Of a stretch of 58,825 bases of DNA, positions 44,336 through 47,917 are shown piece by piece; within the stretch, counting starts at the first letter, position 1; every line of letters starts with the position of its first letter. The notes below the pieces were generated by a model. That model saw nothing but the letters and a program-made list of their open reading frames with translations, did not search any database and had not been told where the DNA came from. The position numbers were made by a program, and so were the translations under genes. This DNA comes from a bacterium (lineage in GTDB: Bacteria; Patescibacteriota; Gracilibacteria; BD1-5; UBA6164), in the NCBI GenBank assembly GCA_024635485.1, contig JAGXIV010000010.1, positions 1 through 58,825 on the forward strand, in the 5' to 3' direction.

Positions 44336-44412
44336 TGGTGGAGAATAGGAGAGTCGAACTCCTGACCTCTCGCGTGCAAGGCGAGCGCTCTAGCCAACTG
44401 AGCTAATTCCCC
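44336..44412 (-). tRNA. tRNA-Ala (anticodon UGC)
   Basis: Anticodon stem ctcgc/gcgag, loop cttgcac (TGC), acceptor GGGGAAT/ATTCTCC and encoded CCA at 44336-44338. Confidence 0.95.
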
Positions 44413-44432
44413 AAAAGTGCTTTGTTTTAAAA

Positions 44433-44510
44433 TGGCGGGATCGACGGGACTCGAACCCGCGACCTCCGCAGTGACAGTGCGGCGCTCTAAACCAACTGAG
44501 CTACGACCCC
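44433..44510 (-). tRNA. tRNA-Asp (anticodon GUC)
   Basis: Anticodon stem ccgca/tgcgg with loop ctgtcac (GTC), G discriminator and encoded CCA at 44433-44435. First gene of the tuf transcript. Confidence 0.95.
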
Positions 44511-44614: not shown

Positions 44615-47002
44615 TTATAATGAAAAAGGAATAGTTACTTCTTTTTTATGTTCTGTAAAATAGTTATTTTTTTCAAGACTCGGTATATCTTTAATTCCAA
44701 TTTTTCAGATATAGAGATCTCCAAGTTCTCACCCATTTTCTAAATAATCTTCAACTCAAAATAAACCGTTCACGTAAACAACATCTTTCATAAATACTCC
44801 TGACTTCGATGGATCTTGAAATCATCTTTTCAAACGAAGCATGAAATTAAAGACTCTTCCCCAATCATCGTCATAAAACTCTGCAAGATGTACCACAAGT
44901 TTTTTATATGAATGTTTTAGAGCAAATTGCACAAAATAGTATCTCTCAAAAATAGAGTAATATTTTTTATCATACGGTGTCAAAAATCTATTTTGATTAT
45001 AAATAGCAATTCACTCATCCGTTTCTAAGTATCAAGCTGTACCAGAAGCAAGAATCTTAAATTGAGATTTTCTTCCATTAATCTTTCGAAGATAATGACC
45101 TTCTATTTCATGTGCTATAATAGAGCGCATTTCTCTCTTACCTACAATAGCATCTTTTTTAAACTGGAGAATGTCTCATTTCATAGAGAATCGAGAGGTT
45201 GATTCTGATTCTTTCATTTTTACTTTGATTCCATAAATATGATTAAATTTTTTCATATAATCTCTAATATCTTCATACTCAATAAATTCCTCTTCTTCAC
45301 GAATGTTATCACGAGCTGAAATTCTCTCTTTCGATCTTTCAAAATTTTCTTGTACTATATCTCCAAAAACTTTTTGACTATAAAGTGTCATGTCTCCATG
45401 ATTTTGTTCTTTAAAAGCGATAAGGAAATTAATTTTATTTTCTATTTCTTTTGCCTTCTTTTGGTAAATTTGAGCAAGTGGAATATCTGGAATTTCAATA
45501 GATTTCAGCTCCTTCTTAAGAGCAGCTAAATCAAGTGGTACTTCTCTATACGTAAACTTTGGGGTATAATCTCCTTGTTTTTCTACAAATATTTGCTTTT
45601 GTTCATCTAAATTAAGTGGGGTTACATATTTTAAAAGAAGCATTTTTTTATCAATTGCTACGAGTCTTGTATCAAGCGCAAGAAGTTGTGACTGATGAAT
45701 CTTAGTAATAGCCGTATTACTTGCGGTAAGATTTCTTGTATTTTGAAGGAATGGATTTTCTCCTTTCTTGTACTTAAATGGATCAATAAGAAAACCTTTG
45801 AGACTACTTCTTCCAAGCAGCATCTTTTCTCCTTGTAAATCAGAGAGCTCAAAACGTAACATTTGAGGAATTCACAGTATTTCACATTCGAGTCGAAGTT
45901 TGGTTTTTTCTCAAAGAGGAATTTTAAGAATATCGACTACAAAAGAAGTATCTATTTTATTTTCTGATTTTCCAATATTTATATCAGCTATATAATTATA
46001 CGTCTTTTCATTATGAATAATTTTTACATATTCTCTTGCTCATACAACTTTTTTACCCGAGAGTTCTGTAATTTTATCTTCAATATCTCACGAAAACAAA
46101 TCTCTTCAAAGTCGTACTCACTTTTCAACCGAGCTAATATCTACCCCTTCTACTTTATCAAGACGGGTTCGCAAAGGAGCAAGATTTACATTTTGAATTT
46201 CAAGACCTGGACGAATATTTATTTCAAGAAGTAAAGGTCAAGAGACTTCATCTAATACGACATCACATCACAAAAACTTGATACCTGTAACTTTTTGAAC
46301 TTGAATTGCAAGTGACAATATCTTATCCCATTCAGGTACAACTATTCATCGTACATCTCCAATCCCAGGAATGGTTTTAACTGTTTTTCCTTTTGAAGAA
46401 ATATAGGTAAGTTTTCAAGTCCCAATATCGATTCCAACTGCACACGCTCAGCCGTGAATATTTGCTTTTCAGCCTGATTCTTTGGTAGGAATTCTCATCA
46501 TTGCCATCACAGGAACCATGTTGTAAGCTATGATTCTAATATCTGGGAGTCCAAAAGTTCCAAAAAGCTCTATCTCTTTTGTAAGTATTATTTTTTTTTC
46601 TATAAGAACGGTATCTCTGCCTCATGATAAAGAGAAAAATCCATCCAGAATATAAATGAAATGCTCAGCCATTTCTTTTGGAGTAAATATTTCTCCTGTA
46701 TTAGTCACAAAGTGACCGAGAGCATTTTGACTTTCTACAATCAAAATTCATTTTCATCCATATCAGTTATTTGGTTTTACAACAAAGGGAGTTTCATAGT
46801 TCTTTATAAGCATTGGATCAACTTCAGTATGTTTCTTGATAATCGCAAGTGTTTCAGGAACAGCAACGTTATGGGCAGAGAGAAATTTTTTGGTTCCGAG
46901 TTTAGAATCAGCTATCTTTTTAGAATCTAAAAAAGAAGCACCTTTGATGTAATGTAAATTTCTGGCATTTTGTCAGAGTAATCCATGAGATTTGAAAAAC
47001 AT
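44615..47002 (-). CDS. ATP-grasp ligase fused to DUF1704 (QEGLA-type) metallopeptidase
   Basis: 795 residues. N-terminal ATP-grasp domain of the RimK-like/sugar-transfer type (about 1-310): KPNNGYGGKG, DIRIIAYNMVPVMAMMRIPT, GGKANIHGGACAVGIDIGTG and the metal-binding LLEINIRPGLE, which allows an amide-bond ligase reaction. C-terminal DUF1704 region (from about 430) with HEIEGHYLRKINGR (HExxxH zinc motif, about 632) and an ETDEGIAIYNQN block, the counterpart of the QEGLA motif. DUF1704 proteins are usually separate genes beside an ATP-grasp ligase, so the fusion supports a joint peptide-ligation and cleavage role. Substrate unknown. Confidence 0.85.
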
Positions 47003-47011
47003 GTGGGAAAA

Positions 47012-47917
47012 TTATTTTTTTAAATATCTACGAGATGAAAAGAATCCACTCAATCAACCTACTGCAAGGAAAACAATAGCCTCAAGGAGTAAGACAAGTG
47101 CAAGATTTCAAGTATATACACCAGAAAAATTTGCGATTTGAAACAGATATTGGAGATTATCAATGAGGAGTAAAAAGAGAATTGTACTTATTGTAAAAGC
47201 CAGTGCTACATACATCATTCCCTGAAGAGAAAATGGTCCATAAATAAATATCTTACTCCCTCATACAAGTCTGGTAATGTAAATCTCATCTTTATAATAA
47301 TAAATAAAGTTTCAAATAATTGAATACACAATTATGGCGATTGAAACTACAAATGTTAATATAATAATATAAAGCCCAAGCTGTAATACCGATAAAATAC
47401 TAATAACATTTTCTATTCTCTCAAATTGTCTGGTATAGGTTGAAAAAAATGCACCTCCACTCTCTGCAGTTTCATTTTCTGTTAAAAGAAAGAGTTTATT
47501 CTCAATTATTCCGTTAAGATTTTCATACTCTGAAAGTGGAATGTTTTGAAGACTAATCGTTTCTGGGAGAGGGTTTTGCCTCTCTAGTATATTTACAAGT
47601 TCAGGATCCGTAGTTCTCAGCTCTTCTAGTACTTCATCTTTTGTTTTATATTTCACATCTATCGATGGAATAGCTCGCTTAATATCATTTTGCAAGTCAA
47701 TTACCTCAACAGAATTTTTATCATAGGCATCGTCTAAATACAGAGATATAGTAAGTTTATCATTAATACTATCTATAATTCTAAAACTCACATCATGTAA
47801 AACTATCAATATATTTATAAAAAACATCAAGAGTGTGAGGATGAGAACCGATGAAGCAGAGAGAAAAGTATTTCTCATTATGTTTTTTGTAGCGTATTTG
47901 AAGAGTCGTGGAAACAT
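47012..47917 (-). CDS. ftsX: cell division protein FtsX
   Basis: 301 residues. Four membrane helices: residues about 20-45 (SASSVLILTLLMFFINILIV), then about 170-200, 220-245 and 265-290, with a large extracellular loop between the first and second (about 45-165) that normally binds a peptidoglycan hydrolase activator. The FtsX family opening FPRLFKYATKNIMRNTFLS and a C-terminal GGLSGFFSSRRYLKK are clear. With FtsE it forms the ABC-like complex that controls septal wall hydrolysis; ftsE is not next to it here. Starts 9 bases past the preceding non-coding run; ATP-grasp gene follows 9 bases on. Confidence 0.9.

Follow-up and report, generated by a model that had tools for sequence, protein, structure and literature searches.

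The window analysed here, a stretch of 58,825 nucleotides from a very small bacterium of the Gracilibacteria, carries on its minus strand a gene (44615..47002, read from 47002 to 44615) that encodes a single uninterrupted chain of 795 amino acids plus a stop codon under genetic code 25 and that is conserved class-wide. In code 25, the code of the SR1/Gracilibacteria group, TGA is read as glycine. All 24 in-frame TGA codons of the gene become glycine codons in this way and the frame remains open, whereas table 11 yields 24 in-frame TGA codons and was rejected for this gene. TGA is also read as glycine in most other long frames of the window, which places the genome in this group. A sequence-only reading of this DNA had described one 795-aa chain with an ATP-grasp ligase and a DUF1704 metallopeptidase, without giving the strand, and the continuous minus-strand frame confirmed the single chain. 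An assembly join between two genes, which had been named as the observation that would speak against it, was ruled out by five other genomes of the genus that carry the intact fusion at 51-83% identity. An FtsX-like permease gene (47012-47917, minus strand) stops 9 nt ahead of the fusion start and occupies the same place in 8 relatives of the family; the two genes may be cotranscribed, and a connection with the control of division or of the cell wall is possible. Genes for tRNA-Ala and tRNA-Asp (44336-44510, minus strand) lie immediately downstream of the fusion, and the plus strand between 48091 and 56691 encodes three large proteins in a row (1230, 943 and 688 aa), to which no family was assigned here.

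The order along the chain is ATP-grasp ligase, degenerate retropepsin and MATCAP/DUF1704, that is, three domains and not two. Both domains named in the sequence-only reading were recovered, and the stretch between them is a third, overlooked domain with a retropepsin fold. The model of the full-length fusion had a mean pLDDT of 84.5 and a pTM of 0.50, and with the latter value the mutual arrangement of the three domains is not fixed by the model. From its sequence, which lacks a signal peptide, the chain is predicted to be cytosolic.

The ligase domain (residues 1-290; 46133..47002, minus strand) was identified as a relative of RloC and TIGR02291. It matches Pfam ATPgrasp_ST over residues 28-285 with 182 bits (cut-off 31), its fold matches RimK at a Z score of 17.1 over 215 residues, and its annotated relatives belong to rloABC-type operons. 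One of these, on a plasmid of Legionella adelaidensis, encodes in a row a retropepsin, an inactive transglutaminase-7TM protein and a ligase that shares 36% identity with the window's over 274 residues. Because its 229 bits against TIGR02291 (alpha-L-glutamate ligase-like) stay below the curated equivalog cut-off of 314, the domain was filed as an RloC relative and not as a member. The ATP-grasp catalytic and metal residues characteristic of RloC/TIGR02291 ligases (K76, E135, D247, E260 and N262) are all present, with the metal-binding residues D247, E260 and N262 encoded at 46217..46264 (minus strand). Across 30 aligned fusions, K76, N78, G80, E135, R156, R170, N181, H183, D247, E260, N262 and R264 were identical in every protein. 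The companions of such ligases, a retropepsin and a 7TM_transglut protein, were found as well, the first fused to the ligase and the second encoded in the same genome but unlinked; in most relatives outside the family the 7TM gene is adjacent. The identity as a tubulin tyrosine ligase (PF03133) was rejected, since its 23 bits cover residues 243-277 only and reflect the shared ATP-grasp metal motif.

The middle of the chain (residues 308-424; 45731..46081, minus strand) was assigned by model, structure match and profile to a degenerate retropepsin domain of the RimB/RloA type. Modelled alone with 56 homologues, it reached a pLDDT of 88, and the best solved structures against this model were Lpg0085 (Z 12.2), RloA (Z 11.7) and RloA2 (Z 11.5). 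A profile of intact split relatives, in which ligase and retropepsin are encoded apart from DUF1704, matches the same residues with an E value of 4e-20; given this profile match and the retropepsin-fold model, the segment was rejected as a mere linker. A direct search of the window genome with PF05618 (RimB/RloA) gave no match above the cut-off, and the link of the fusion to this family therefore runs through the intact split relatives, which match PF05618 above its cut-off. At the position of the catalytic Asp of the D[TS]G motif the alignment places Asn342 (N-I-G for D-T-G; 45977..45979, minus strand), and membership among the active RimB/RloA proteases was rejected because the catalytic Asp is missing.

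The C-terminal MATCAP/DUF1704 metallocarboxypeptidase domain (residues 445-780; 44663..45670, minus strand) matches Pfam MATCAP (PF08014) over residues 472-778 with 105 bits (cut-off 27), covering positions 3-330 of the 365 of the profile, and human MATCAP aligns with the domain at a Z score of 24.1 with an rmsd of 2.6 over 277 residues. The HExxxH motif, the downstream Glu and the fold that characterise PF08014 are all found, the zinc site being formed by H631-E632-x-x-x-H636 and by E663 of a TDEGIA motif (45014..45112, minus strand). None of the residues H631, E632, H636, E663, K739 and Y743 differs among the 30 aligned fusions. The domain shares fold and zinc site with human MATCAP/TMCP (KIAA0895L/KIAA0895), and the KRG..KD.VY pocket segment aligns; unlike these, the fusion is bacterial, joined to a ligase and without a tubulin tail. 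The domain is likely, judged from its sequence, a MATCAP-type carboxypeptidase. The two active sites pointed out in the sequence-only reading, the LLEINIRPGLE metal site (E260 and N262, with K76 and D247 also present) and the HEIEGH zinc motif, thus hold throughout the 30 homologous fusions, and the suspicion that ligase residues might be missing was not borne out.

Further MATCAP proteins were observed in other contexts. Besides the fusion, the window genome encodes a stand-alone MATCAP protein with 539 aa (L002:592-2208, contig C29 of G000), and in G152 a similar stand-alone protein follows directly behind the fusion (L088:6067-7686). On a plasmid of Vibrio sp. HDW18 (L127:4110-6098), an N-formylglutamate amidohydrolase domain is fused ahead of MATCAP in a protein of 663 aa, and in Sinorhizobium medicae (L128) a MATCAP gene has a glutathione-synthetase-like ATP-grasp gene as its neighbour and an amidohydrolase gene in the vicinity. 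In the Vibrio and Sinorhizobium neighbourhoods, MATCAP keeps company with glutamate amide chemistry. A literature search returned no report on the function of bacterial MATCAP/DUF1704 proteins.

The fusion is old and widespread. In a sample of 288 genomes of the class, 206 had a match and at least 140 a near-full-length one, the latter count being a tally of the listed rows; identities ranged from 83% down to about 31%, and many of the matches lie in genomes without TGA recoding. A more distant homologue comes from a Candidatus Peregrinibacteria genome; a contig scan with one protein as query recovered only this source genome of the query. In a sample of the phylum, the ligase was present in 114 of 380 genomes. 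Outside the class, a shorter gene for ligase and retropepsin prevails, and DUF1704 is the next gene, lies elsewhere or is absent. In other lineages where it is the next gene, it overlaps or nearly touches the ligase gene, in agreement with the earlier statement that the two proteins are separate neighbours elsewhere. Further fusions or fusion-sized frames occur in other orders of the phylum. Fusion-sized open frames of 755-781 aa were seen in family f69 (order of G331) in G686, G696, G681, G670, G663, G677 and G679; close relatives in this family have two adjacent genes instead, and additional fusion events could be dated here. A tree of 92 ligase domains requires 2 changes to account for the fused state. 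The literature search found no description of DUF1704 with ATP-grasp or of MATCAP in Gracilibacteria, with an earlier mention possible in a 2009 amidoligase review that lay outside the search.

Loss of the retropepsin site goes with the fused state. In the alignment, 31 of the 36 split proteins retain D[TS]G, but 8 of the 63 fused ones do, the site thus being eroded in 55 of the 63 DUF1704-fused proteins. The sequences are related and the independent events few, and the pattern, though consistent, does not amount to a test of significance. All five eroded split proteins fall into a single clade and have DUF1704 as the next gene. The position of the eroded Asp holds many residues (N, R, K, H, Q, S, T, A), and further along the domain G397, L401 and D407 do not vary among 30 fusions. 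Judged from the sequences, catalysis was lost and the fold retained.

The ligase is accompanied by a 7TM protein of the RloB family (7TM_transglut, PF14402). It was detected in 110 of the 114 genomes that have the ligase and never among the other 266. In 70 of the 73 cases checked outside the class, its gene lies just upstream of the ligase gene on the same strand. An inactive transglutaminase domain was not found in the 7TM proteins scanned, and some members have a PKD domain in front. The partner in the window genome has 519 aa and is encoded on another contig, unlinked to the fusion (G000:C23:10621-12177; L123:5622-7178). It has a hydrophobic N-terminal stretch and ends in ...REISHNSDSEE. 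This tail follows an Arg-rich segment downstream of the last predicted membrane helix and, by a rough prediction from the hydropathy plot, would be cytosolic. A gene for a bacterial sugar transferase (Bac_transf) ends 7 nt ahead of the partner gene, and the pair was present in all nine loci read of the window's family (the window genome and 8 relatives, with Pfam checked in three).

The Glu-Glu end of the partner varies with the type of system. In a first sample, a Glu-Glu end was seen on the partners of 48 of 50 fused systems and of 5 of 5 eroded systems with adjacent DUF1704; among the 31 split systems whose DTG is intact, the count was 0. Hold-out genomes gave 16 of 19 fused vs 1 of 38 split systems, G119 being counted as split because it lacks a fused MATCAP and having been reassigned before the count. 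Pooled, 69 of 74 fused or eroded-adjacent systems had the tail vs 1 of 69 others, and a second further sample, which also contained the eroded, non-adjacent locus L275, added by our count 5 of 5 vs 2 of 24 new loci. As background, 5 of 490 other open reading frames of at least 250 aa in the same loci end in Glu-Glu. Exceptions are the fused genomes G185, G124 and G008, whose partners lack the tail, and the split systems L153, L235 and L268, which have it despite an intact DTG. Three split proteins with adjacent DUF1704 (L062, L064 and L071) keep DTG, and their partners lack Glu-Glu. The clearest exception is L275 (G676), in which the retropepsin motif is eroded (NTK), DUF1704 lies on another contig and the partner tail lacks Glu-Glu. 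On the tree, the tail changes (3) and the system changes (3) agree, with 2-3 independent pairs and none contrary; tail and erosion patterns together go back to about three origins, a number with which an independent-pair test cannot reach significance. A Shine-Dalgarno artefact as the source of the Glu-Glu codons was rejected. Unlinked partner genes keep Glu-Glu (in the window genome the next gene is convergent), so a ribosome-binding site of the ligase gene does not by itself account for the tail, and the tail is missing from split systems in which the ligase gene comes directly after the partner gene.

Several characterised systems allow comparison. RimK adds glutamates to the C-terminus of S6, and RimB removes them in an Asp-dependent manner and stimulates RimK (PMC11957791). 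Like RimK-RimB and the hybrid RimBK (PMC11957791), the fusion has an ATP-grasp ligase and a RimB-type retropepsin on one chain. In RimBK, however, RimB is N-terminal and active, whereas in the fusion the retropepsin comes after the ligase and before MATCAP and has an eroded catalytic site; identity with RimBK was rejected because of the reversed domain order. The rloABC module of Pseudomonas and other Gammaproteobacteria consists of a secreted retropepsin (RloA), an inactive transglutaminase-7TM protein (RloB) and an ATP-grasp protein (RloC). The fusion resembles it in its RloC-related ligase, in a retropepsin nearest to RloA structures and in the RloB-family companion. It differs in that ligase and retropepsin are joined in one chain without signal peptide, the Asp is lost and MATCAP is added, and the scanned 7TM proteins lack the inactive transglutaminase domain of RloB, some having PKD instead. 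The split systems of the Patescibacteria share the domains and the upstream 7TM gene with the fusion but have two genes, a mostly intact DTG and a partner tail usually without Glu-Glu. In Pseudomonas aeruginosa, loss of rloB or rloC rescues the growth of an rloA triple mutant under hypoosmotic stress (PMC12239564), which indicates that the proteases oppose the pair of ligase and 7TM protein. The rlo operon of this species affects osmotic tolerance, cell shape and biofilm formation (PMC12239564).

The sequence-only reading had proposed a peptide-tag or peptidoglycan-modifying cycle. Its first part stands in outline as a ligase-protease cycle on one chain; for peptidoglycan no direct support was obtained, the closest known operon, rloABC, affecting cell shape and osmotic tolerance (PMC12239564). 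The dead retropepsin site, the kinship to rlo and rim systems, the RloB-like partner on another contig and the class-wide conservation of the fusion had no place in it.

We propose, with a confidence just short of even, that the fusion derives from an rlo/rim-type module and, as one cytosolic chain, both writes and erases amino acids at protein C-termini, with the RloB-like tail as the likely substrate. In a first step, the RloC/RimK-like ATP-grasp domain would couple an amino acid to the C-terminal carboxylate of a protein at the expense of ATP; glutamate is the most likely choice, but another amino acid is possible. In a second step, the MATCAP domain would strip C-terminal residues, as the human MATCAP-family enzymes do on tubulin, where they trim C-terminal residues, shorten added glutamate chains and oppose TTLL6 (PMC10499314). 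The retropepsin is the eraser in Rim systems. With its catalytic Asp lost from the sequence, it would here probably serve as a scaffold or, like RimB toward RimK, as an activator of the ligase, and MATCAP would have taken its place as eraser. The presumed substrate is the cytosolic tail of the RloB-like 7TM partner, ending in ...SDSEE. S6, the RimK target, is an unlikely substrate, as the window's S6 has the C-terminus ..FVNLDA, a tail without Glu. Proteins with five or more glutamates at the C-terminus are reported to be encoded less often where rimB or rimBK is present (PMC11957791), and this rarity fits the lack of Glu-Glu tails where the retropepsin is intact. Against the partner tail as substrate counts that the partner gene is unlinked to the fusion in the window genome.

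A somewhat unlikely alternative is that the Glu-Glu tail is a docking signal, perhaps bound in the MATCAP cleft, that anchors the cytosolic fusion to the membrane, the target of the ligase lying elsewhere, e.g. in an envelope-polymer precursor. Binding of such a tail is to be expected of a carboxypeptidase even if no cut follows, the name of the ligase family (ATPgrasp_ST) refers to an association with sugar transfer, and the partner gene directly follows a sugar transferase gene in the nine loci described above. This neighbour is seen here in one family only, however, and acidic C-termini are known targets of RimK-type ligases (PMC11957791), which makes the tail a natural substrate. That the fusion makes and trims free peptides such as poly-alpha-glutamate, without any protein substrate and with the 7TM protein exporting or sensing the product, appears unlikely: the 7TM gene almost always accompanies the ligase, and RimK makes free poly-alpha-glutamate under stimulation by RimB (PMC11957791), but such an activity does not predict a Glu-Glu partner tail in fused systems. 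Quite improbable is a mere accident of shared ancestry, in which one old clade fused, lost DTG and gained the tail without any functional link, for although the few origins on the tree keep independent-pair tests from significance, the available pairs agree or do not differ, the site eroded to many different residues while the rest of the domain was kept, and the tail pattern was repeated in two further samples, largely within the same clades.

If the one-chain writer and eraser proposed here acts on the partner tail, it may be a bacterial counterpart of the tubulin tail cycle, in which one enzyme would write and erase C-terminal Glu on the Glu-Glu tail of a 7TM protein, a metallocarboxypeptidase replacing the retropepsin and the tail changing with each change of eraser; we regard this parallel as possible, with more doubt than belief. 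The fusion ties the rlo-type ligase/protease systems to the bacterial MATCAP/DUF1704 proteins and points to a definite candidate substrate for an rlo-type module, namely the Glu-Glu end of its 7TM companion. It looks like a natural case of a protease swap inside a writer/eraser module, parallel to the tubulin tail cycle of eukaryotes.
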